Shown piece by piece: positions 9,422 to 36,975 of a stretch of 64,000 bases of DNA. Origin of the DNA: Aeromicrobium sp. Root344 (GTDB lineage Bacteria; Actinomycetota; Actinomycetes; Propionibacteriales; Nocardioidaceae); NCBI RefSeq assembly GCF_001425755.1, contig NZ_LMDH01000001.1, forward strand, positions 1,276,474 through 1,340,473, given 5' to 3'. Numbering within the stretch: position 1 is the first letter of the stretch; the number at the start of each line of letters is the position of its first letter. The position numbers and the translations under genes were made by a program. The notes beneath the pieces are model-generated. The model did not search any database and was not told the origin of the DNA. It saw nothing but the letters and a program-made list of their open reading frames with translations.

Positions 9422-10123
9422 ATGGAGGCATCGCGCGCCGCCGACGCACTGGCCAAGGCCTCAGCGGCCTTGGTCGGCGAGACCGACATCGCCGGGTTCC
9501 TGGCTGCCCTCCTCGCCAGCGGCGCCGACGTCCTGAAGGTCGACGCGAGCGGCATCCTCGTCGAGGATGACGACCAGCTCGACCTGCTCGCGGCATCGAG
9601 CCACGCTGCGGTCGAGCTCGAGATGCACCAGGCGCAGCTCGACGAGGGCCCGTGTGTCGAGGCCCACGAGTCCGGGGTCCCCGTCAACGCCCACGGCGCC
9701 GAGCTCACGGACCGGTGGCCGGTGTTCGGCCGGCGGATGCAGGACTCCGGGTTCCAGGCGGTGCATGCCTCACCGTTGCGCTGGCACGGCGTGGCGCTCG
9801 GCGCGATGGGGCTGTTCCGCCGCAGCGACGTCCCGTTGACCGCCGAGGAGGAGACCGTCGCCCAGGCGTTCGCCGACCTCGCGACCCTCCTGATCGTGCA
9901 GACCGACAAGGTCGATCTCGACACCGTCAGGCGCCGGGTCCAGGACGTGCTCACCACGCGCATCGTCATCGATCAGGCCAAGGGTGTCCTCGCCGAGCTG
10001 CGCGGCACCGACATGGCCGAGGCCTACGAAGAGCTGTTGCGGCGCGCGTCCGACGACGACAAGACGCTCACGGCGACCGCGCAGTCGGTCATCGAGCAGG
10101 CCCAGCGCGACCGGCTCACCTGA
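9422..10123 (+). CDS. Second GAF and ANTAR domain-containing regulator
   Basis: 233 residues from the ATG at 9422, two bases after the preceding stop. The GAF domain covers about residues 15-160 (GILVEDDDQLDLLAASSH, DEGPCVEAHESGVPVNA, HASPLRWHGVALGAMGLF). The C-terminal ANTAR domain includes IVIDQAKGVLAELRGTDMAE and the final helix TLTATAQSVIEQAQ. It is probably a partner or paralogue of the upstream protein; a hetero-oligomer is possible but unproven. The 3' end overlaps the convergent methyltransferase gene by 8 nt (TCACCTGA), so there is no room for a separate terminator. Confidence 0.88.
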   Translation: MEASRAADALAKASAALVGETDIAGFLAALLASGADVLKVDASGILVEDDDQLDLLAASSHAAVELEMHQAQLDEGPCVEAHESGVPVNAHGAELTDRWPVFGRRMQDSGFQAVHASPLRWHGVALGAMGLFRRSDVPLTAEEETVAQAFADLATLLIVQTDKVDLDTVRRRVQDVLTTRIVIDQAKGVLAELRGTDMAEAYEELLRRASDDDKTLTATAQSVIEQAQRDRLT

Positions 10124-10793
10124 CGAGAAGCACCAGCACGCCACGGTCCTCGTACGCGCGGTGCTCCGCCAGTCGCAGGCCGAGCTCCGGGTGATCCGTG
10201 AGGTGGTCGCTGACCGCGGCGACCTGGTCGAGCCCGCCGAGCTGCAGGACCGCCGATCCGTCATCCGCGAGATGCCCGCCGACGATCTCCAGGCACGTAC
10301 GCACGAGGTCGAGGCCGTCCGCGCCGCCGTCGATCGCGTGGAGCGGGTCGTCGACATGCTCGCCCGTCTCCCCGCTCGGCACCCAGGGCGGGTCGGCGAT
10401 GATCAGGGCGAACCGTTCCTCGTCGGCGATCAGGTCGTCCATCTGCCCGCACCGGATGTCGACCGGACCTGGCAGGCTGGCCCGCTCGACGTTCGCCGCC
10501 GCGTGCTCGCAGGCGACGTCCGAGGAGTCGACGAGCACGAGCGGACGATCCTGACCGACCATCGCCAACAGGCCGATGTGCCCCACGCCGGCACACAGCT
10601 CGAGCACGGGACCGTCAGGGGCGGTGCGCAGCAGCGCTGATGCCCACGCGGACTGGGCGGTGGTCCACCGTCGGGGCCGAAGAACCCGTTCGTCGTACTG
10701 GATCGACAGCGATCCGAACTCGATCAGCTCGGTGCGCACCTGCTCGACGTCAACGGTCACCGCCGCCGGATACCCCGGCACCACGCCCGGCAA
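10116..10793 (-). CDS. Class I SAM-dependent methyltransferase (HemK/RsmC-like)
   Basis: 225 residues with a Rossmann methyltransferase core. Motif I is VLELCAGVGHIGLLA (about residue 64), motif II PLVLVDSSDVACEHA, and a catalytic ADPPWVPSGE segment resembles the NPPY/DPPY motif of N- and RsmC-type methyltransferases. It therefore probably methylates a protein, RNA or DNA nitrogen; the target is unknown. It starts 6 nt after the stop of the DUF6328 gene and is the last gene of a four-gene minus operon that begins with the SDR at 12420. The alternative GTG start at 10760 cannot be excluded. Confidence 0.78.
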   Translation of the reverse strand: MPGVVPGYPAAVTVDVEQVRTELIEFGSLSIQYDERVLRPRRWTTAQSAWASALLRTAPDGPVLELCAGVGHIGLLAMVGQDRPLVLVDSSDVACEHAAANVERASLPGPVDIRCGQMDDLIADEERFALIIADPPWVPSGETGEHVDDPLHAIDGGADGLDLVRTCLEIVGGHLADDGSAVLQLGGLDQVAAVSDHLTDHPELGLRLAEHRAYEDRGVLVLLVR

Positions 10794-10799
10794 ACCGGT

Positions 10800-11252
10800 T
10801 CAGTCCATCTTGACCTCGCGGGCCGGCACCAGGACCCACGTCACGAGGACGAACAGCGCGATCAACGCCGCGACGAGCCAAGCCACCCAGCCCGTCGCCA
10901 CCACGTCGAGAATCAGCCACACCGCTCCGACGTTCGCGAGAGCGAGGGTGCCAAGACCCCACCGCGATGACTGGTGGGCGGCCTCGACGAGCCAAGGCCG
11001 GGCATGGCGGTGGAAGAGCGCGCGGTGCAGGGCGACCGGCGTCATCAGCAGGAACGTCGCGGCGACGGCACAACACAGCACCGCGGCATACACGGCGTGC
11101 CGCGACTCCTCGAGGTCCTCGAAGCGAGGGGTGAACGGCAACGTCAGCAGGAAGCCGGTCAGGATCTGCACACCGGTCTGCGCGACCCGCAGCTCCTGCA
11201 GGAGCTCCTGCCAGTTGCGGTCGAGCTTGCCCTGCTGCGAGGACGCGGCCAC
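10800..11252 (-). CDS. DUF6328-like integral membrane protein
   Basis: 150 residues with a charged N-terminus (NWQELLQELRVAQTGVQILTGF) and four hydrophobic stretches: GFLLTLPF, VYAAVLCCAVAATFLLMTPVAL, LGTLALANVGAVWLILDVV and WLVAALIALFVLVTWVLVP. The conserved start and the HRALFHRHAR loop match the DUF6328 membrane family, whose function is unknown. It lies 1 nt from the upstream DUF7218-like gene and 6 nt from the methyltransferase gene, in an operon whose presumed promoter resembles a SigF/SigB-type stress promoter. A role in general stress is inferred from that context only. Confidence 0.75.
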   Translation of the reverse strand: MAASSQQGKLDRNWQELLQELRVAQTGVQILTGFLLTLPFTPRFEDLEESRHAVYAAVLCCAVAATFLLMTPVALHRALFHRHARPWLVEAAHQSSRWGLGTLALANVGAVWLILDVVATGWVAWLVAALIALFVLVTWVLVPAREVKMD

Positions 11253-11253
11253 C

Positions 11254-11526
11254 TCAGTGGTTGCGGAGGGCCTTGACCAGCTCCGACTTGTTCTTGCCCG
11301 AGTAGTTCTTCAGCCCGAGCTCCTTGGCCCGCTTCTTGAGGTCATCGACCTTCCAGTCCTCGTACGACCCGGACTTCCCGCCCTTGCGGCCGACCGACGA
11401 CTCGGACCTGCCCTTCTGGGCCGTGGCGTTCGAGATCCGAGCCGCCTTCTCCTTGGAGGCGCCGTCCTCGCGCAGGTCCTCGTACATGTCAGGGTTCTTG
11501 AGGCTCGAGTTCTTCTTGCCCGGCAT
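11254..11526 (-). CDS. Small basic DUF7218 / Rho-N-like protein
   Basis: 90 residues, rich in Lys and Ser. The N-terminal half (KNPDMYEDLREDGASKEKAA, ISNATAQKG) matches the DUF7218 type, and the C-terminal third (WKVDDLKKRAKELGLKNYSG, KSELVKALR) is a Rho N-terminal / SAP-like helix-extended-loop-helix that commonly binds nucleic acid. Such small proteins are frequent beside stress genes in actinobacteria. Nucleic-acid binding is inferred from the fold. The ATG at 11526 has AGGAG upstream, 24 nt after the SDR stop, and only one base separates its stop from the next gene. Confidence 0.78.
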   Translation of the reverse strand: MPGKKNSSLKNPDMYEDLREDGASKEKAARISNATAQKGRSESSVGRKGGKSGSYEDWKVDDLKKRAKELGLKNYSGKNKSELVKALRNH

Positions 11527-11550
11527 GACTGCTCCTTTCCTTCGAGTGAT

Positions 11551-12420
11551 TCAGAAGACGGCCTTGCCGCCCGTGACGCCCAGCACCGTGCCGGACACGT
11601 AGCTCGCGTCGCGCTCGGACGCGAGGAACACGAATGCCGGCGCGACCTCGGCCGGCTGCCCGGCCCGCCCCAGAGGGGTGTCCTTGCCGAACTTCTCGAC
11701 CTTCTCGACGGGCTGGGTCGCGGGCTGCAGAGGCGTCCAGATCGGCCCCGGCGCCACGGCGTTCACGCGTATGCCCTTGGGCCCGAGCTGGGCCGCAAGG
11801 TTGACCGTGGCGTTGTTGATGGCCGCCTTGGTCGCGGCATAGTCGAGCAGTGTGCTCGACGGGTCGTAGGCCTGGATCGAGGAGTTGTTGATGATCGACG
11901 ACCCCGGCTGCAGATGGGCCACGGCGGCGCGGGTCAGCCAGAACAACGCGTAGAGGTTCGTCGTGAAGACCCGGTCCATCCGCTCGTCCGTGATCTCCTC
12001 GATGCCCTCCTCGCGGGCCATCTGGAACCCCGCGTTGTTGACCAGCACGTCGAGCCCACCGAGCTGCTGCACCGTGTCCGCGACGACCCGGTCGCACGTC
12101 TCGCGGTCTCGCAGGTCTGCCTCGATCGCGACGTGCTGGCGACCTGCCTGGTCGAGCAGAGCGGACGTCTCGTCGGCGTCCGCCTTTTCCTCGGGCAGGT
12201 ACGTGAACGCCACATCGGCGCCCTCCCGCGCATACGCGATCGCGACGGCCCGGCCGATGCCGGAGTCACCGCCCGTGATCAGCGCCTTGCGCCCCTCGAG
12301 GCGGCCATGGCCTTGGTAAGACTCCTCGCCGTGGTCCGGCACCGGCTGCATGTCGTTCGTCAGTCCCGGGGGCTCCTGCTGCTGAGGTGGGAATGCCTGT
12401 GCTTCGTCGTCGTGACTCAT
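11551..12420 (-). CDS. YghA-type SDR oxidoreductase
   Basis: 289 residues from the ATG at 12420. The extended N-terminus (FPPQQQEPPGLTNDMQPVPD, HGEESYQGHGRLEGR) is characteristic of the YghA subgroup. Then come the cofactor motif TGGDSGIGRAVA, LPEEKADADE, LVNNAGFQ, a catalytic Ser in SIINNSSIQAYD, and YAATKAAINNAT with the active Tyr/Lys. YghA-like SDRs act on glyoxal or aldehyde-type substrates in some bacteria and are often stress induced. The gene leads a four-gene operon. A near-consensus SigF-type promoter lies just upstream at 12430-12454, divergent from ku. Confidence 0.88.
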   Translation of the reverse strand: MSHDDEAQAFPPQQQEPPGLTNDMQPVPDHGEESYQGHGRLEGRKALITGGDSGIGRAVAIAYAREGADVAFTYLPEEKADADETSALLDQAGRQHVAIEADLRDRETCDRVVADTVQQLGGLDVLVNNAGFQMAREEGIEEITDERMDRVFTTNLYALFWLTRAAVAHLQPGSSIINNSSIQAYDPSSTLLDYAATKAAINNATVNLAAQLGPKGIRVNAVAPGPIWTPLQPATQPVEKVEKFGKDTPLGRAGQPAEVAPAFVFLASERDASYVSGTVLGVTGGKAVF

Positions 12421-12429
12421 GCTCGGGAC

Positions 12430-12454
12430 GTGCCCACCGCTCGAGGCATTAAAC
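12430..12454 (-). promoter_or_regulatory. Candidate SigF/SigB-type promoter for the SDR operon
   Basis: Read on the minus strand this is GTTT, 15 nt, GGGCAC, located 10 nt upstream of the SDR start codon. It differs at one base from the GTTT-N15-GGGTAC elements found upstream of 14235 and of ligD. The known actinobacterial SigB/SigF promoter pattern is G(N)(N)T or GTTT, about 15 nt, then GGGTA(C/T). The short distance to the ATG would imply a very short leader, which lowers confidence. Confidence 0.45.
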
Positions 12455-12496
12455 GCGATGACTGGCATCTGACGAGGCAACGCGATTCACTTAGGC

Positions 12497-13348
12497 ATGC
12501 GATCCATCTGGAAGGGCGCCATCAGCTTCGGTCTGGTCAACGTGCCCGTCAAGGTCTACAGCGCGACCCAGAGCCACGACGTCTCGCTGCACCAGGTCCA
12601 CAACAAGGACGGCGGCCGGATCCGCTACCAACGCAAGTGCGAGGTGTGCAACAAGGTCGTCGCCTACGAGGACATCGACAAGGCCTACGACGACGGTGAG
12701 AAGACCGTCGTGCTCACGGACGAGGACTTCGCCTCCCTGCCGGCCGAGCGCAGCCACGAGATCGAGGTCGTCGAGTTCGTGCCCGCCGACCAGGTCGACG
12801 TCCTGATGCTCGACAAGGCCTATTTCCTCGAGCCCGAGGAGCGGGCGCTCAAGCCCTACACGTTGCTGCGGCGGGCACTCGAGGACTCCGACCGCACCGC
12901 GATCGTGCAGTTCGCCTTGCGCCAGAAGACCCGGCTCGCGGCCCTGCGCGTCCGCGACAACGTCCTGGTCCTCCAGACGATGCTGTGGGACGACGAGGTT
13001 CGCAAGCCCGAGTTCGACGTGCTCGACTCGACGCCGCGCATCAGCCAGAAGGAACGCGACATGGCAGCACAGCTCGTCGACTCGCTGTCGGAGGACTTCG
13101 ACCCCTCGGCGTTCACCGACGACTACCAGGAGCAGCTGCGTACGTTGATCGAGGCCAAGATCGAGCAGGGCGCCTCGCTCGACACCGAGGCCACGTTCGG
13201 CGAGCAGCCCGAGGACGAGAGCGCCGACGTCGTCGACCTGATGGAGGCGCTCAAGCGCAGCGTCGACCGCAAGAAGGCGTCCAAGAAGGCCCCGGCCAAG
13301 AAGAGCGCCGCCAAGAAGAAGCCGGCGGCCAAGAAGAAGGCCGGCTAG
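12497..13348 (+). CDS. ku: Ku, non-homologous end-joining DNA-end-binding protein
   Basis: A 283-residue bacterial Ku. The start MRSIWKGAISFGLVNVPVKV is diagnostic; the core includes RIRYQRKCEVCNKVV, KPYTLLRRALEDSDRTAIVQ and MLWDDEVRKPEF. After about residue 255 the protein ends in a Lys/Ala-rich tail (KKASKKAPAKKSAAKKKPAA), like the extended tails of mycobacterial Ku that help DNA binding. Ku homodimers bind double-strand ends and recruit LigD, whose gene lies 2.7 kb downstream on the same strand. The stop is interleaved with the convergent GAF-ANTAR stop on CTAG. The 76-bp gap to the divergent SDR gene must carry both promoters. Confidence 0.96.
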   Translation: MRSIWKGAISFGLVNVPVKVYSATQSHDVSLHQVHNKDGGRIRYQRKCEVCNKVVAYEDIDKAYDDGEKTVVLTDEDFASLPAERSHEIEVVEFVPADQVDVLMLDKAYFLEPEERALKPYTLLRRALEDSDRTAIVQFALRQKTRLAALRVRDNVLVLQTMLWDDEVRKPEFDVLDSTPRISQKERDMAAQLVDSLSEDFDPSAFTDDYQEQLRTLIEAKIEQGASLDTEATFGEQPEDESADVVDLMEALKRSVDRKKASKKAPAKKSAAKKKPAAKKKAG

Positions 13349-14064
13349 GTCGCCGGGGTCTGCTCGGGCGACAGCTGCGGCGTCTCGAACGTCGCGTCCG
13401 GTGAGTTGCGGTGCTCGACGACCCACTCGGCGACGTAGCGCAGCTTGACGTTGTGGGCCTGCGACTGGCGGCGCAGGAAGTCGAAGGCCCGGTCGGGCTC
13501 GAGGTCGAAGCGTTCCATGAGGATGCCCTGCGCCTGTCCGATCAGCTTGCGGGCGTCGATCGCGACCTGCAGGCCCTCCTCGTTGTGGGCGTTGGCCAGC
13601 GCGACAGCGGCATGGCGTACGAAGATCGTCGCCACCGCGACGTCGTCGTCGTCGAAGGCATTGACGTGGTCGGCGTAGAGATTGAGCGAGCCGTAACGAC
13701 GCGTCCGTGTCTCGAGCCGGACGCTCAGCACGCTCCGGATGCCGAGCTCGGCGACGGCGGGGCCCCACTTGAGCCAGCGGGGATCGTTGCCGACGTCGCC
13801 GGACTGATAGATCGCCTCACCCTCGATCGCGTCGAGGCACGGCCCTTCGTCGTGCACGATCTGCAGGTTGTGGGACTCACCGACGCGCTGCGAGGTGGCG
13901 GCCGCCGTCTCGATCTGGTTGCGGGCGTGGACGAGCATGATGCCGGCGTCCTCGCAGCTCGTCGCGACCCGCGCGTACTCGGCGATCAGCTCGACCGTGC
14001 GTTCAGCAGTGGGCTCGTCGTGGAGGTCGAGGGCCATCTGTGAGAAGAAGGTCGAACTGTCCAC
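13345..14064 (-). CDS. Third GAF and ANTAR domain-containing regulator
   Basis: 239 residues from the GTG at 14064, chosen because AGGAG lies 7 nt upstream; the in-frame extension to 14211 is not protein-like. The GAF part (residues about 15-165) includes EGPCLDAIEGEAIYQSGDVG, RSVLSVRLETRTRRYGSLNL and DDDVAVATIFVRHAAVAL. The ANTAR part has KLIGQAQGILMERFDLEPDR and KLRYVAEWVVEH. It is probably an RNA-binding antiterminator controlled by a sensed ligand. It sits between ku and the sigma-factor region, suggesting a stress role. It is the third GAF-ANTAR protein within 6 kb. Confidence 0.86.
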   Translation of the reverse strand: MDSSTFFSQMALDLHDEPTAERTVELIAEYARVATSCEDAGIMLVHARNQIETAAATSQRVGESHNLQIVHDEGPCLDAIEGEAIYQSGDVGNDPRWLKWGPAVAELGIRSVLSVRLETRTRRYGSLNLYADHVNAFDDDDVAVATIFVRHAAVALANAHNEEGLQVAIDARKLIGQAQGILMERFDLEPDRAFDFLRRQSQAHNVKLRYVAEWVVEHRNSPDATFETPQLSPEQTPAT

Positions 14065-14135
14065 CGGGGTACTCCTAACCGGGCCCTTCACGAGGAACGC
14101 CCTCTGACAGAAATATATAGCGCTTGGGGTGCGGT

Positions 14136-14160
14136 GTTTGCTGCCAGTTGCGCTGGGTAC
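14136..14160 (+). promoter_or_regulatory. SigF/SigB-type promoter upstream of the gene at 14235
   Basis: GTTT at 14136-14139, 15 nt, then GGGTAC at 14155-14160. This is a perfect match to the SigB/SigF promoter pattern of actinobacteria. It lies 74 nt upstream of the ATG at 14235 on the same strand and is identical in layout to the element before ligD. A SigB/SigF-type sigma factor is encoded 0.9 kb away (15047-15814). Confidence 0.72.
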
Positions 14161-14234
14161 GAGGGCCGCAGCACGCGGACGCACTGAGGCGGCAACACCG
14201 TGCCGCTCCACGATTCTCGGGAAGGGGATGCCCG

Positions 14235-14723
14235 ATGATCCTGGGACCGGGCTCCACCGGAACCACCGTCACCCTCTTCGGCGGGAGCGATCCGCTCGAT
14301 CACGCCCTCAGCAACCACCTCGACCAGCGTGGCTGCAAGACGCATTCGGTCACCGTCGCGACCGGATGGTTGCAGTCGGTGACACACGCGATCATGCGGC
14401 TCGACACCGTGGCCGGCGCCGAGGCGTTCAAGCAGCTGGCCGACACCCCGGCGCCTCGCTCGCACGTCGTCGCCGTCTGCCCCGAGACCGACGACGACGC
14501 GGAGTCCGAGCGAGTCCGCGACCTGTGCCGAGCGTGCGGCGTGCACCACGACGTCGCCCTGATCTTGCACCCTCCGCTCGGCGCCGACGGCATCGCAGCC
14601 TCGACGGCGAGCACGACTGCGGCGCTGGCCGCCACCGTCGCGGACGAGATGGCCGACCACCTCACCGTGGGCGCACCCGCGTTCGTCACCCGCCCGTTCA
14701 CGCTCGACTCCGGTGGTCATTGA
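14235..14723 (+). CDS. Hypothetical protein, Rossmann-like, likely SigF-controlled
   Basis: 162 residues with no family I can name. The N-terminus TVTLFGGSDPLDHALSNHL looks like a beta-strand followed by a glycine turn and helix, as in nucleotide-binding Rossmann folds. Further strands may be SHVVAVCPETDDD and DVALILHPPLGADGI, the latter followed by an Ala/Thr-rich helix. A catalytic Tyr-Lys pair is not visible, so it may be a degenerate sugar-epimerase-like or binding domain. The ATG at 14235 has AAGGGG upstream. A perfect GTTT-N15-GGGTAC promoter precedes it. The stop overlaps the convergent small gene by 7 nt. Confidence 0.7.
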   Translation: MILGPGSTGTTVTLFGGSDPLDHALSNHLDQRGCKTHSVTVATGWLQSVTHAIMRLDTVAGAEAFKQLADTPAPRSHVVAVCPETDDDAESERVRDLCRACGVHHDVALILHPPLGADGIAASTASTTAALAATVADEMADHLTVGAPAFVTRPFTLDSGGH

Positions 14724-14938
14724 GCCTCGAGCTCCACGGCACCGTCGTCGAACATGCCGACGGTCGCGCGTACGTCCCACAGTGCCGCGGGTGAGCTGAT
14801 CGTCTGCACGGCGATCTTGGCGGTGCCGTCGCCGTCGAGCGCCGACGCGACCACGTCGTGGTGGAGGGCGAACTCGTGAAGCAGATCGCGCTGGATGTGG
14901 GGGCCGCTCAGGCGAAACGTCAAGGTGGTGCGCTGCAC
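14717..14938 (-). CDS. Small hypothetical protein next to sigma factor gene
   Basis: 73 residues from the GTG at 14938, which has GAGGAA 7 nt upstream; the longer frame to 15025 lacks coding character. The sequence has beta-strand-like stretches (TTLTFRLSGPHI, TAKIAVQTISSPAALWDVRA) and an acidic tail (GMFDDGAVELEAQ). No known family was recognised. It lies about 110 nt downstream of the sigma factor gene on the same strand, so it may be co-transcribed with it and could be a regulator, but that is speculation. Confidence 0.55.
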   Translation of the reverse strand: MQRTTLTFRLSGPHIQRDLLHEFALHHDVVASALDGDGTAKIAVQTISSPAALWDVRATVGMFDDGAVELEAQ

Positions 14939-15046
14939 TAAACCGTTCCTCGGGTCAGCAAGATGGAGCGGCTGCTGCTGAACCGGCGACTGCACTCTAC
15001 CCAAGACATGAAGATGGGCGGCCACCGGATCGGTGACCGCCCATCG

Positions 15047-15814
15047 TCAGGCGGCGTCGGCTGCGAGCGCGGATTCTCGAAGCCTGGCCAGCAGCTTGGC
15101 GAGCCGTCGGGAGATCTGCATCTGGCTCACCCCGACGATCTCCGCGATCTCCTGCTGGGTCTTGTCCTCCACGAACCTGAGCCGGAGCAGGAGTCGCTCG
15201 TCGTCGTCGAGCTCGCGGCACAGCGGCTCGATCGTGACCCAGTCGTCAATGAACTCGTAGTCGGACGTGTCCCCGGCGATCGTCTCGCCCAGTGGCCGGC
15301 CGCTCTCGCGTACGGGCTGGTCGAGCGACGTCGGCGAGAAGCAGCTGCGTGCCGCCATCGCCTCCCGGACGTCGTCGATGCCGGCGTCGATCTCGTCGGC
15401 GATCGTCTCGATGTCCGGCTGCCGGGAGTCCGACTGCAGGCACCGTTCGGTCGCGCTGGAGATGTCCGCCTGCATCTGCTGGATCCGGCGCGGGGGCCGG
15501 ATGCCCCAGCAGTAGTCGCGGAAGTACTTCTTGATCTCGCCGAGGATGGTGACCGTGGCGAAGGGTACGAACTCACCACGGTCGTGGTCGAAGCCACGAA
15601 TGGCCTTGACCAAGGCGAAGCAGGCGACCTGGGCCAGGTCGTCGCGGTCGGCTCCCCGGCCGGCATAACGCCCGGCCAGATGGTGCGCGAGCCCGAGGTG
15701 GCGACGAACCACCTCGTCCTCGAGGAGCTCTCGTTCGGCATCGTCGGCGTGACGTGCCGCTTCGATCAAATCGTGCGTGTCATCGTGCTGCGCCAATGCG
15801 GGAGCAGTGTTCAC
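15047..15814 (-). CDS. SigB/SigF/SigG-family RNA polymerase sigma factor
   Basis: 255 residues. Region 2 contains HHLAGRYAGRGADRDDLAQV, FALVKAIRGFDHDRGEFVPF and TVTILGEIKKYFRD. The linker WGIRPPRRIQQMQ is the typical SigB/SigF signature. Region 4 is EPLCRELDDDERLLLRLRFV with a helix-turn-helix TQQEIAEIVGVSQMQISRRL. Such factors direct RNA polymerase to general-stress promoters and are usually held by an anti-sigma factor; no RsbW/RsbV pair is visible here. The start is a GTG at 15814 with a G-rich stretch upstream. Nearby GTTT-N15-GGGTAC promoters are plausible targets. No clear self-type promoter was found in its own upstream region. Confidence 0.9.
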   Translation of the reverse strand: MNTAPALAQHDDTHDLIEAARHADDAERELLEDEVVRRHLGLAHHLAGRYAGRGADRDDLAQVACFALVKAIRGFDHDRGEFVPFATVTILGEIKKYFRDYCWGIRPPRRIQQMQADISSATERCLQSDSRQPDIETIADEIDAGIDDVREAMAARSCFSPTSLDQPVRESGRPLGETIAGDTSDYEFIDDWVTIEPLCRELDDDERLLLRLRFVEDKTQQEIAEIVGVSQMQISRRLAKLLARLRESALAADAA

Positions 15815-16027
15815 GGTAAAACCCCCAGGGGTCTCGATCCGTCAACCGGCTTCTGCTCAACCGGTCCCCCCACCATGGCACTGTGGAGTCTGAAGTGCAA
15901 GAGGCTCGTGGTCGCAACTGACTAGTCGATATGGTTCGAACTAACCATCAGCGTCTCGGTGCGGCGCGTTCCCTCGCGTTTCGCCCGGTTTCCCCCGGGT
16001 ACGAGCCGGTGAGCGAGAGGAGGCCCG
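15815..16027. other. Divergent intergenic region between sigma factor and ligD
   Basis: About 213 bp without a gene. It holds the ligD promoter candidate (15978-16002). It also has an imperfect palindrome ATGGTT-N6-AACCAT at 15931-15948. On the sigma-factor strand there are two direct copies of CCGGTTGA at about 15834-15859. Either could bind a regulator, but nothing identifies one. Confidence 0.4.
15978..16002 (+). promoter_or_regulatory. SigF/SigB-type promoter upstream of ligD
   Basis: GTTT at 15978-15981, 15 nt, GGGTAC at 15997-16002, ending 25 nt before the ligD ATG. It is a perfect match to the SigB/SigF pattern and shares spacing and both hexamer halves with the element at 14136. This would place the NHEJ ligase under general-stress control by the sigma factor encoded divergently next door. 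Confidence 0.72.
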
Positions 16028-18388
16028 ATGGCGCGCAAAAGCGACACCCAGACCGTGTCGGTCGCCGGCCACCGCCTCCGCCTCACCCATCCCGACAAGG
16101 TCGTCTATCCGTCGACCGGCACGACCAAGGCCGAGGTCATCTCCTACTACATGGAGATCGCGCCGTTTCTCCTGCCGCACCTCGCCGGTCGCATCGTGAC
16201 GCGCAAGCGCTGGGTCGACGGCGTCGGCACGGCCGAGCAGCCGGGCGAGGTGTTCTTCGAGAAGAACCTGCCGTCGTCGGCGCCGGACTGGATCAGGCGT
16301 GTGGAGATCCAGCACAGTGACCACGTCAACACCTACCCGGTGTTCGACAGCGCGGCTGCGCTCGCGTGGGCCGGGCAGGTCGGCGCGCTCGAGCTGCACG
16401 TGCCGCAGTGGAAGGTCGACAGCCGCGGCAAGAAGCTCAACCCGGACCACCTCGTGCTCGACCTCGATCCCGGACCGGGCGCAGGCCTGCCCGAGTGTGT
16501 CGAGGTCGCCAAGCGGGCTCGCGCGCTGCTGCGCGAGCTCGACCTCGACGCGTACCCCGTGACGAGCGGCAGCAAGGGCATCCACCTGTATGCCGGGCTC
16601 GACGGCGAGCACGACGCCGACTACGTCAACCAGTTCGCCAAGCAGTTCGCCCAGGTGCTCGAGGCCGACCTGCCGGACCTCGTGGTCAGCTCCATGAAGA
16701 AGAGCCTGCGCGGCGGCAAGGTGCTGGTCGACTGGAGCCAGAACAACGCCAACAAGACGACGATCGCGCCCTATTCGTTGCGCGGGCGGACCGAGCCGTA
16801 CGTCGCGGTGCCCCGCACGTGGCGCGAGCTCAACGACGACCTGCAGCACCTCACGATGGACGAGGTGCTGCAACGCATGAAGCGCCGCAAGGACCCCATG
16901 GCGGAGCTCGCCGGCCCGAAGCCCGCAAGCGACAAGCTCGCGACCTACCGGTCGAAGCGCGATGCCAAGAAGACGCCCGAGCCGGTGCCGGATGAGATGC
17001 CCGGAGCCGGCGACGGAAAGTCCTTCGTGATCCAGGAACACCACGCGAGCAGCCTGCACTGGGACTTCCGGCTCGAGCACGACGGCGTGCTGGTGTCGTG
17101 GGCGCTGCCCAAGGGGCCGCCGACGGACCCCAAGAAGAATCACCTGGCGGTGCAGACCGAGGACCACCCGCTCGAGTACGGCACGTTCGAGGGCACGATT
17201 CCCAAGGGCGAGTACGGCGGCGGCGAGGTCACGATCTGGGACATCGGGACGTTCGAGCTCGAGAAGTGGCGCGACGGCAAGGAGGTCATCGCGACGCTCA
17301 CGGGCCGCAAGGGCGGTGGACTGGGCGGCACCCGCAAGTTCGCGCTGATCAAGACCGGCAAGAACTGGCTGATCCACCTCATGGACACGCCGAAGCCCAC
17401 CCGCAAGAAGGCCCCCGCGAAGTCGATGAAGAAGGGCTTCGTCGCGCCGATGCTCGCCAAGCTCGGGTCGGCGGGCGACATCCACGACGAGGACGACTGG
17501 GCGTTCGAGATGAAGTGGGACGGCATCCGGGCCGTCGCCGTGATCGACGGCAAGGACGTCGGCCTGTTCACGCGCAACGAGAACGATGTCACCGCGGGCT
17601 ACCCCGAGGTCGTCAGCGCGCTGGCCGAGCTGGGGCTCGACGACACGGTGCTCGACGGCGAGATCGTCGCGCTCAACGCCGCGGGGGTTCCCGACTTCGG
17701 CCGGCTGCAGCAGCGCATGGGACTGACCAAGGAGGCCGACGTCGAGGCGGCCCGCCGCGACGTGCCGGTCAAGTACCTCGTGTTCGACGTGATGCGTTCC
17801 GCCGGCGAATCACTTGTCGACCGGACGTACGTCGACCGGCGCGAGGCGCTGCACCAGCTCGCGATCGCGGCCGACGTCGTCGAGGTGCCCAAGGCCTACG
17901 ACGGGTCGCTCGAGGACGCTGTCGAGTCGAGCAAGACGCTCGGGCTCGAAGGCGTGCTGGCCAAGCGGCGCGACAGCCGTTATCTCGGGGGCAAGCGCGC
18001 GACGGCGTGGACCAAGGTCAAGCACCAGCGCATGCAGGAGGTCGTCGTCGGCGGCTGGCGCACGGGCCAAGGAGCGCGCAGCGGCAAGATCGGCGCGTTG
18101 CTGCTCGGCATCCCCACCGAGGACGGGCTCCGCTACGTCGGCAAGGTCGGCACGGGGTTCGACGAGCGTACGTTGGCCGACCTCCAGAAGCGGCTGTCGA
18201 AGCTGTCCCGCAAGACCAGCCCGTTCGGCGACATCCCCCGCGAGATCTCCCGCGACGCGCAGTGGGTGACGCCCAGCCTGGTCGGTGAGGTCTCGTTCGC
18301 GGAGTGGACGGCCGGTGGCCATCTCCGCCAGCCCAGCTGGCGCGGCATACGCACGGACAAGAAGCCCCAGGAGGTCGCCTTGGAGTGA
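16028..18388 (+). CDS. ligD: Multifunctional DNA ligase D (Pol-PE-ligase)
   Basis: 786 residues in the mycobacterial domain order. The polymerase/primase domain covers about residues 1-300, with the metal-binding DLD pair (D145, D147) in LVLDLDPGP and TSGSKGIHLYAG. The 3'-phosphoesterase domain covers about 330-450, with HHASSLHWDFRLEHDG and GTIPKGEYGGGE. The ATP-dependent ligase domain covers about 475-786, with the adenylated Lys496 in EMKWDGIRAV and DGEIVALN. It fills gaps, trims 3' ends and seals double-strand breaks together with Ku. GAGAGGAGG precedes the ATG. A perfect stress-type promoter lies upstream. Confidence 0.97.
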   Translation: MARKSDTQTVSVAGHRLRLTHPDKVVYPSTGTTKAEVISYYMEIAPFLLPHLAGRIVTRKRWVDGVGTAEQPGEVFFEKNLPSSAPDWIRRVEIQHSDHVNTYPVFDSAAALAWAGQVGALELHVPQWKVDSRGKKLNPDHLVLDLDPGPGAGLPECVEVAKRARALLRELDLDAYPVTSGSKGIHLYAGLDGEHDADYVNQFAKQFAQVLEADLPDLVVSSMKKSLRGGKVLVDWSQNNANKTTIAPYSLRGRTEPYVAVPRTWRELNDDLQHLTMDEVLQRMKRRKDPMAELAGPKPASDKLATYRSKRDAKKTPEPVPDEMPGAGDGKSFVIQEHHASSLHWDFRLEHDGVLVSWALPKGPPTDPKKNHLAVQTEDHPLEYGTFEGTIPKGEYGGGEVTIWDIGTFELEKWRDGKEVIATLTGRKGGGLGGTRKFALIKTGKNWLIHLMDTPKPTRKKAPAKSMKKGFVAPMLAKLGSAGDIHDEDDWAFEMKWDGIRAVAVIDGKDVGLFTRNENDVTAGYPEVVSALAELGLDDTVLDGEIVALNAAGVPDFGRLQQRMGLTKEADVEAARRDVPVKYLVFDVMRSAGESLVDRTYVDRREALHQLAIAADVVEVPKAYDGSLEDAVESSKTLGLEGVLAKRRDSRYLGGKRATAWTKVKHQRMQEVVVGGWRTGQGARSGKIGALLLGIPTEDGLRYVGKVGTGFDERTLADLQKRLSKLSRKTSPFGDIPREISRDAQWVTPSLVGEVSFAEWTAGGHLRQPSWRGIRTDKKPQEVALE

Positions 18389-18431
18389 GGCTGCGACCGA
18401 TCGAAACCCAAACCCGACACGAGGAGAACCC

Positions 18432-18857
18432 ATGCCGTTCAAGAAGAAGAAGTTCCGCAACCGACTCGAAGCACGCCTGGACGACCTGGCGAGCCAGACC
18501 GAGGAGCTCCGCCAGCAAGTCGTCGACCGGGCGCCGGGCGTACGCGACTCACTGGTCGACATGCTGCCCGACAAGGACCAGCTGCGTGACCTGCGCGACG
18601 ACCTGTTCGACCGCCTCCCTGACGGTGTCGCGGACAAGGTGCCCGACAAGGTCAAGCCCAAGAAGCGCTCGAAGCTCAAGCGCGTCGCGTTCCTCGGCGT
18701 GCTGACCGGCGCCGGCGCGGCAGCGTTCGCCGCGGTGAAGGGCAAGGGTCAGACTCCGCCGCGGCCCGAGCCGTTCCCGGCGCCACCCACGCCGCCGGCC
18801 CCGGCGGACGTCACGGCACCGAAGCCGGCCAAGAAGGCACCTGCCAAGAAGCCGTGA
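18432..18857 (+). CDS. Hypothetical Lys/Pro-rich protein with one membrane segment
   Basis: 141 residues from the ATG at 18432 (GAGGAG upstream), 43 nt after ligD. It has a basic N-terminus (PFKKKKFRNRLEARLDDLAS), a charged heptad-like helix to about residue 75, and one hydrophobic segment VAFLGVLTGAGAAAFAAVKG (about 85-104). A Pro-rich tail ends in APKPAKKAPAKKP, echoing the Lys/Ala tail of Ku. No family was recognised. It could be a membrane-anchored nucleoid- or envelope-associated protein; this is a guess from composition. Close spacing suggests co-transcription with ligD. A strong hairpin follows. Confidence 0.65.
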   Translation: MPFKKKKFRNRLEARLDDLASQTEELRQQVVDRAPGVRDSLVDMLPDKDQLRDLRDDLFDRLPDGVADKVPDKVKPKKRSKLKRVAFLGVLTGAGAAAFAAVKGKGQTPPRPEPFPAPPTPPAPADVTAPKPAKKAPAKKP

Positions 18858-18864
18858 GCACCGA

Positions 18865-18899
18865 CACGAGATCCCCGGGCGGCGCCTGGGGATCTCGTG
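18865..18899 (+). terminator. Hairpin terminator after the ligD unit
   Basis: A perfect 12-bp stem: CACGAGATCCCC (18865-18876) pairs with GGGGATCTCGTG (18888-18899) around an 11-nt GC-rich loop. It starts 7 nt after the stop codon at 18857. There is no T-run, as is common in high-GC actinobacteria. Confidence 0.7.
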
Positions 18900-18910
18900 C
18901 GTTCGCAGAC

Positions 18911-35866: not shown

Positions 35867-36975
35867 ACGTGGCAGCTGACGGCGGGCGCCCGGCGAGGCC
35901 GGGAGATCGCGCGCCGCGCGGGCTCCTCGACCAGGTGGTAGAACGCCGCACCGAGGGCCACGACGGCGGTGACCGTGAGCGCGAGGCCCACGGCTCGGAC
36001 GGCGACGGACGCAGTGGCGAGGTCCTGACGCCGGACGACCTCGACATACGTCAGCACCACGACGTAATGCGTGAGATAGATCGAGTACGAGATGCGGCCG
36101 CCCCAGACCACGAGGCGACCCGAGAGCGCGCGAGCGACCCAGCCGGTGGCACCGGCACAGCCCACGACGACCAGGCAGAGGAACGGCAGGCCGGCCGGCG
36201 GGAGGTAGAACGTCGGGCTCGGGTCACCTGCCAGGAGTGCGACGACAACCCCCGCGGCGCCGAGTCCCGCGATCACGTCCCAGACCGGCGACCGGCCGCG
36301 CGGGCCCATCAGCGTCCACCCTCTGGCTAGCAGGCAGCCGGCCGGGAACGCCCACCCGGCCCGCATCCACGAGAGCTCGTAGAGCGAGTAGCCGAAGTCG
36401 TCGGTGTAGGTCGCGGCGATCAGGCTCGCCCCGGCGATCGCGAGGAGTGCCGCGAGCGCGAACGCGATCCAGGCCCTGGGGATGCGCACCACGGCGAGGA
36501 CAAGCACGGGAAACAGGGCGTACGCCACGACCTCGCCGGGCAGCGACCACGCCGGAGGGTTGATGACCATGCCGTCGGGCAACGAGTGCAGGAACAACGC
36601 GTTGCGGATGACGCTGCCGGGCTCGATCACGGCCGACGGGACCGGCGGGTCCGACAGCCGCTGCGTGACGGCGACGAACGCGATGAACAGCGCGAGCGAA
36701 AGTGCGTACACGGGATAGATGCGGGCAAACCGGTGCCGCCAGAAGTCTCGGGCGCGTGCCCAGGAGAACGAAGCCATCCGCTCGCCGTGGACGACGGTGA
36801 TGATGAACCCGCTGAGCACGAAGAACGTGTCGACCACCAAGCTGCCGCCCAGCGCCGGGCGCGCGAGCTCAACGAGACGGGGGAACTGCGGCACGGCTGG
36901 CGCCCAGAGGTGACCGAGGACGACCCAGGCGGCCAGGACTCCGCGGAGCCCGGTCAGCGGGCGGATCTCCCTCAC
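35863..36975 (-). CDS. Acyltransferase-3 family membrane protein (2 of 3)
   Basis: 370 residues from a GTG at 36975 (GTGA overlap with the upstream stop). Motifs: IRPLTGLRGVLAAWVVLGHL with the conserved His, SLVVDTFFVLSGFIITVVHG, HRFARIYPVYALSL and a late GRISYSIYLTHYVVVLTY. About 10 membrane helices are visible. It ends with YHLVEEPARRAISRP, nearly the same as its downstream neighbour. It likely acylates the exopolysaccharide or its lipid-linked repeat unit. A much longer in-frame extension covering the upstream gene is a shadow. Confidence 0.9.
   Translation of the reverse strand: MREIRPLTGLRGVLAAWVVLGHLWAPAVPQFPRLVELARPALGGSLVVDTFFVLSGFIITVVHGERMASFSWARARDFWRHRFARIYPVYALSLALFIAFVAVTQRLSDPPVPSAVIEPGSVIRNALFLHSLPDGMVINPPAWSLPGEVVAYALFPVLVLAVVRIPRAWIAFALAALLAIAGASLIAATYTDDFGYSLYELSWMRAGWAFPAGCLLARGWTLMGPRGRSPVWDVIAGLGAAGVVVALLAGDPSPTFYLPPAGLPFLCLVVVGCAGATGWVARALSGRLVVWGGRISYSIYLTHYVVVLTYVEVVRRQDLATASVAVRAVGLALTVTAVVALGAAFYHLVEEPARRAISRPRRAPAVSCHV

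Follow-up and report, generated by a model that had tools for sequence, protein, structure and literature searches.

The window analysed here is a stretch of 64,000 nucleotides from Aeromicrobium sp. Root344 (contig NZ_LMDH01000001.1, positions 1,276,474 to 1,340,473), and it carries a cluster encoding Ku and LigD of the non-homologous end joining (NHEJ) pathway together with a sigma factor. Ku (12497-13348, plus strand) is followed by a GAF-ANTAR gene (13345-14064, minus), an orphan alpha/beta gene (14235-14723, plus), the sigma factor gene (15047-15814, minus) and ligD (16028-18388, plus). A group of SDR, DUF7218, DUF6328 and methyltransferase genes diverges from Ku. Pfam and NCBIfam bore out the identities of Ku, LigD, the sigma-70 factor, SDR, DUF7218 and DUF6328 that had been proposed in a sequence-only reading of the window.

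Promoter-like sites and their conservation

A pattern scan recovered, in place and in orientation, all three sites of the form GTTT-N15-GGGTAC that the same reading had described. The predicted ligD promoter (15978-16002, plus) is an exact match; the ligD ATG at 16028 lies 25 nucleotides past it, with the Shine-Dalgarno-like GAGAGGAGG between. The predicted promoter of the orphan gene (14136-14160, plus) is also exact and stands about 75 nucleotides upstream of the ATG at 14235. The predicted promoter of the SDR operon (12430-12454, minus) has one mismatch (GTTT-N15-GGGCAC) and points away from Ku. A further site, GTTT-N16-GGGTA at 10771-10795 on the minus strand (G000:1287244-1287268 in the coordinates of the strain's own genome, G000), was found in addition to these three and adjoins the start of the methyltransferase gene. 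Within the 64 kb window, GTTT-N15-GGGTAC with at most one mismatch occurred four times, the fourth match being at 36706-36730; 0.78 matches were expected, and none of 100 shuffles reached four. An Rfam search of 10000-18900 gave no match.

The available part of PMC7390352 gives GTTT-N(15-17)-GGGTA as the SigF promoter consensus of Mycobacterium smegmatis, in agreement with the earlier statement that the pattern is that of mycobacterial SigF promoters. The ligD, orphan-gene and methyltransferase sites all have the -35 element GTTT, a spacer of 15-17 and the -10 element GGGTA, while the SDR site, with GGGCA, departs from this -10 element by one mismatch.

Conservation was examined in the 18 genomes of the genus whose sigma orthologue is at least 66% identical. 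All 18 maintain the same gene order: ANTAR, orphan, sigma, ligD. A site preceded ligD in 17 of them, and the orphan gene in all 18 (with N16 in G036). For column statistics, three near-identical genomes and the one genome of each set without an N15 site were dropped, leaving 14 rows each. Because the rows were picked by matching GTTT-N15-GGGTA, the invariance of the motif columns is a product of selection. Independent evidence comes from the many genomes that match at the identical place with a mean spacer identity of just 42% (ligD) and 35% (orphan gene). Beyond the selected letters, C after GTTT and C before GGGTA were each found in 13 of 14 ligD sites, and the orphan-gene sites had G after GTTT (14/14) and C after GGGTA (13/14).

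The site pointing away from Ku was found at the same place in seven of the 16 genomes examined, G000 included, whichever gene comes next. That gene encodes SDR in G000, G010 (N16), G022, G041 and G036 (GGGAA), the methyltransferase in G024 (exact site) and DUF7218 in G035 (GGGCAC). The methyltransferase gene was also preceded by a site in G022 and G002, and a site lies near a methyltransferase gene in L004. Orphan-gene homologues in G046 and in G062, the latter of another genus, likewise had a site (loci L265, with N16, and L266), and those in G065 and G132 (loci L267 and L268) had none. Among 30 LigD loci of the genus that were fetched, the site was present in seven of the eight with a linked sigma gene; in most of the other 22, LigD comes after Ku by coordinates. 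A wider survey of actinobacteria took in 80 LigD loci in named genomes; over all 80, the core motif was found 9 times, compared with 5 for the controls.

The sigma factor, the genome-wide sites and Ku

The protein encoded at 15047-15814 contains sigma-70 regions 2, 3 and 4 (PF04542, PF04539 and PF04545) and is the presumed reader of the sites. It is classed here as a SigB/SigF/SigG-like sigma factor; the closest solved structures are chains 1l0o_C, which we take to be a SpoIIAC-type sigma, and 8x6g_H. A search of G000 for sigmas close to this protein, with extracytoplasmic function (ECF) sigmas outside the survey, returned one strong hit, at 557 bits; the two others scored far lower, at 44 and 37 bits, and are taken for primary-type sigmas. 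A strong hairpin at the sigma stop codon (15009-15049, minus; -33.5 kcal/mol, z -5.83), perhaps a terminator, stands between the sigma gene and a downstream gene for a 73-residue protein (14717-14938, minus). The 73-residue protein is present in 10 of the 18 relatives, and the longer open reading frame (ORF) at this place has no Pfam family.

Other arrangements of related genes were also seen. At L133 and L134 (G025 and G012, respectively) a more distant sigma of about 50% identity adjoins Ku, and the core site is absent from the locus. In L277 (G020), an SDR gene follows the gene for a second SigF-like sigma, and L294 (G002) is an SDR locus; in each, a site precedes an ORF that is cut by the end of the stretch and has at least 319 residues.

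The genome of the strain is a single contig of 3.87 Mb, in which the reversed motif served as control. The published core GTTT-N15/16-GGGTA was found at 16 sites, compared with 4 controls. Across the 18 genomes, the corresponding numbers were 241 and 67, with the core motif exceeding the control in 17. In G000, 14 of the 16 core sites stand before plausible genes, so that the 'local' regulon of the sequence-only reading, well supported as to SigF-type sites at this locus, was too narrow. The predicted targets are GlgE, a haem-oxygenase-like protein, an SRPBCC protein, an FAD oxidoreductase, a DUF2188 protein, an ANTAR protein, a lipoprotein-like protein and two membrane proteins (lipoprotein and membrane assignments by eye), two small proteins, and the methyltransferase, orphan gene and ligD of the window. 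Of the two remaining hits, one lies inside the 16S rRNA gene and one before a TetR-like gene, a doubtful target. This content would be expected of a general stress regulon. For a cross-genome check, 34 motif stretches were taken from G002, G020, G022 and G024, to the exclusion of this locus and of hits resembling 16S; 15 contained a counterpart of a target in G000. The GlgE, SRPBCC, FAD oxidoreductase and haem-oxygenase-like targets recurred in both G022 and G024.

Ku is present in 46 of 49 genomes of the genus, and the 400 bp upstream of it were scanned at 30 loci fetched from these 46 (L180-L209). A SigF-type site with at most one mismatch was found at none of the 30, and a SigF-type Ku promoter was rejected. 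Instead, ACT or AAT ending 5-7 nucleotides before the Ku ATG was present in 28 of 30 loci (the exceptions being G025 and G012), compared with 0-5 of 30 when six other offsets were taken as controls. The element is shared by sigma-linked and unlinked genomes alike, and in the window it belongs to the region 12470-12496. Its presence in 28 of 30 loci points to a separate, probably housekeeping and leaderless, Ku promoter. The suggestion that Ku might also belong to the stress regulon was thus not upheld: no upstream region has the site, nearly all share another element, and the nearby SDR site reads away from Ku.

LigD domains and neighbouring genes

LigD of the window has Prim-Pol, phosphoesterase and ligase domains (Pfam, NCBIfam), and a full-length LigD was found in 8 of the 18 genomes, among them G013, where ligD has no site. 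In G002, G044, G047, G048 and G035, the frame at the ligD position stops just past the phosphoesterase domain and has no ligase domain. These five ORFs are 453 to 518 residues long, the two longest counted from upstream starts. Further on from the frame, all five genomes have a stretch that weakly resembles the ligase domain (29-34%); in G035 it is truncated where the contig ends. G006, G008 and G020 have a gene for Prim-Pol only (318-331 residues) in the place of ligD. These eight loci are L303-L310, in the order given. G034 and G037 look as if they also end after the phosphoesterase domain, as judged from one LigD search only. The SigF-type site is present in all ten genomes with a shortened or apparently shortened LigD, G034 and G037 included.

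Behind ligD lies a gene for a small protein without a Pfam family (18432-18857, plus), which was also found behind ligD in L004, in L005 and in all eight further linked stretches, and before Ku in L006. It is probably co-transcribed with ligD and possibly associated with NHEJ.

The 162-residue orphan protein matched nothing in Pfam, NCBIfam or PHROG, and it is present in 17 of 149 genomes of the family. A structure model built from 17 sequences had a predicted local distance difference test (pLDDT) score of 78.5 and an alpha/beta fold with weak structural neighbours only. A single Foldseek hit fell below E 0.001 (FprA, TM 0.45), which was insufficient to assign a named family. The earlier reading had called the gene 'orphan Rossmann-like'. 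The GAF-ANTAR gene, identified with Pfam, is divergent from the orphan gene and adjoins it in all 18 relatives.

In the divergent group, the SDR oxidoreductase gene comes first (11551-12420, minus; Pfam PF13561, NCBIfam). By eye, its start is likelier to be the ATG at 12420 than the TTG at 12480. This ATG lies about 9 nucleotides past the -10 element, so the SDR message would likely be leaderless. It is followed by the genes for DUF7218 (11254-11526, minus; Pfam), DUF6328 (10800-11252, minus; Pfam) and a methyltransferase (10116-10760, minus), which probably starts at the GTG at 10760. The methyltransferase is HemK/PrmC-like, with NCBIfam scores under every curated cut-off. A similar SDR gene was seen between Ku and LigD, immediately ahead of ligD, in 11 Curtobacterium loci and one Frigoribacterium locus (L045, L054, L055, L061-L064, L068, L072, L073, L075 and L078), where a same-strand site with at most one mismatch was found upstream of SDR in 0 of 12. 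Genes for DUF6328 and DUF7218 recur near Ku and LigD in several Microbacteriaceae. L036, a record titled Vibrio cholerae, has Ku and LigD arranged as in Arthrobacter loci and is probably mislabelled or contaminated.

Interpretation and comparison with known systems

The sites are very probably genuine promoters that are read by the 15047-15814 sigma factor as part of a stress or stationary-phase regulon, with LigD among the targets and Ku outside it. That LigD belongs to a SigF-type stress regulon is, on the sequence evidence, the most likely reading because of the conserved placement of its site, the excess of the core motif, the stress-type targets and the presence of a single close sigma of this type. 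RNA polymerase carrying the SigF-like sigma would read the sites, and the sigma would govern the response to general stress or to stationary phase. In stressed cells, LigD would go up together with the small protein encoded after it, as would the orphan alpha/beta protein, the methyltransferase, the products of the SDR, DUF7218 and DUF6328 genes and those of about ten genes elsewhere in the genome. Ku would not be a target and would probably be made from a constitutive, leaderless promoter; stress would therefore shift the ratio of LigD to Ku and not induce the whole end-joining pathway. What the sequences themselves show is the motif, where it stands, how it is conserved, the sort of genes it precedes and that it is missing at Ku; the pairing of this sigma with the sites, induction, constitutive Ku expression and the effect on physiology are inferred. 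The earlier proposal that end joining is induced in the general stress response is accordingly supported in part, well for LigD as a regulon member (site in 17 of 18 genomes, SigF consensus, single strong sigma, stress-type targets) and not for Ku: judged by motif, LigD has a stress-sigma promoter, and Ku has none (0/30).

Several results weigh against this reading. The full pattern is not in excess in G000: exact matches with N14-16 numbered 3 (two of them the ligD and orphan-gene sites), compared with 6 reversed controls, and matches with one mismatch numbered 35, compared with 46. Three of these 35 are, however, clustered in 3.6 kb, with a simulated P of about 0.016. The genome-wide scan that the sequence-only reading had proposed thus shows enrichment for the core (16 compared with 4) but not for the full pattern. 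In G013, which carries ligD and the linked sigma, ligD has no site, and this is the sole genome of the 18 in which the core motif is below the control. The site was found in 0 of the 22 fetched LigD loci of the genus without a linked sigma. In the 250 nucleotides upstream of the 80 LigD loci in named genomes, the exact GTTT-GGGTAC was found in L004 only and a one-mismatch GGGTAA in L005, the other 78 having two mismatches or nothing. In the cross-genome check, 19 of the 34 motif stretches, including most of those from G020, had no counterpart of a target in G000. For the sigma itself, the best NCBIfam model is indeed SigB/SigF/SigG (TIGR02980), as expected from the earlier family claim, but its score of 205.7 bits is under the curated cut-off of 234.35; we therefore call the protein SigF-like and not a formal member of the subfamily. 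No SigF-type site with at most one mismatch was found in the 260 nucleotides upstream of the sigma gene in any of the 18 genomes, and autoregulation through such a site was rejected. Thirteen matches to RsbW-type ATPases (HATPase_c_2) were found in G000 but none in the window, the best being a 147-residue ORF at G000:1347441, about 55 kb from the sigma gene.

The lack of excess of the full pattern, together with the core hit inside the 16S rRNA gene, is what one would see if the sites were chance matches in GC-rich DNA or were conserved for some other reason. This is extremely unlikely given their intergenic placement, their presence in 17 of 18 and 18 of 18 genomes with diverged spacers, and the 241 core motifs compared with 67 controls; a chance origin was rejected on comparative placement despite the unenriched full pattern. 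The sigma score under the family cut-off and the survey's restriction to close sigmas, ECF sigmas lying outside it, leave room for real promoters that are read by a different sigma or activator. We hold this to be improbable, since GTTT-GGGTA is the signal of SigF and the search of the genome gave no second sigma with a strong score; moreover, the ligD site is kept in 17 of 18 sigma-linked genomes and in none of the 22 fetched loci without a linked sigma. Induction of both Ku and LigD by the sigma, with Ku served by a degenerate or distant site, would suit a cluster in which the divergent SDR site begins about 43 nucleotides from the Ku ATG, and both genes are in the EcfG regulon of Sphingopyxis granuli (PMC7083833, available part). 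However, with none of 30 Ku upstream regions carrying a site and 28 of 30 carrying ACT or AAT in linked and unlinked genomes alike, as would fit a housekeeping leaderless promoter, control of the whole pathway is unlikely.

A related question is which activity of LigD the sigma would serve. Because the site persists in genomes without the ligase domain, or without both ligase and phosphoesterase domains, and Ku lies outside the regulon, it is possible, though doubtful, that the stress sigma controls the Prim-Pol activity of LigD rather than end joining and that LigD acts partly without Ku, for example to fill gaps or to patch with ribonucleotides when cells are not growing.

If LigD is a target and Ku is not, stress would change the balance between polymerase-ligase and end-binding protein, a simple and testable model that would link mutagenic repair with stress and lack of growth. 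Several relatives in which the gene behind this promoter has no ligase domain would serve as natural variants for finding out which activity of LigD is needed under stress. To our knowledge, the signals that bring on end joining in actinobacteria have been little studied.

The regulon of M. smegmatis SigF shares the promoter form of the window sites, but there chaB and rsbW are expressed together with sigF, which has a promoter that depends on SigF (PMC7390352, available part); the window has no RsbW-type match, and a SigF-type site precedes the sigma gene in 0 of 18 genomes. Ligase, DNA repair and SDR were not mentioned in the text of PMC7390352 that was available. For M. tuberculosis under genotoxic stress, the accessible text of PMC5057432 reports a SigF site in a single case among 110 gene clusters. 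One Curtobacterium responds to drying with higher levels of Ku, an NHEJ ligase and two unnamed sigma factors (PMC12029717, in part); no SigF-type site was found in the other Curtobacterium loci examined here. In Streptomyces ambofaciens, also an actinobacterium with NHEJ, kuA rises with growth phase and ligD is too low to measure, and Streptomyces NHEJ genes are not induced by genotoxic stress; the change is seen in ku, and no sigma factor is named in the available text (PMC5124664). Within the partial texts available, and with most subscription journals outside the search, no statement was found of an actinobacterial ligD under a SigB/F-type sigma.

In Sinorhizobium meliloti, a proteobacterium, NHEJ is stress-inducible through the general-stress sigma RpoE2, which is of ECF type; our literature search turned up no paper on this. 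We know of no sporulation in the genus of the strain studied here. The Bacillus subtilis ykoV-ykoU genes (Ku-LigD) resemble the present case in that LigD depends on a sigma of the B/F/G group, but there both genes are under the forespore sigma G within the sporulation programme (PMC5124664, in part). In S. granuli, ku-ligD lie within the EcfG general stress regulon, so that ligD is likewise under a general stress sigma; the differences are an ECF-type sigma, another lineage and the inclusion of both ku and ligD, where here ligD alone has a site (PMC7083833, in part). Stress-sigma control of ku-ligD is thus already known in other lineages, and the mechanism itself is ordinary; what looks new is the combination of a SigF-type sigma linked to ligD with Ku left aside.

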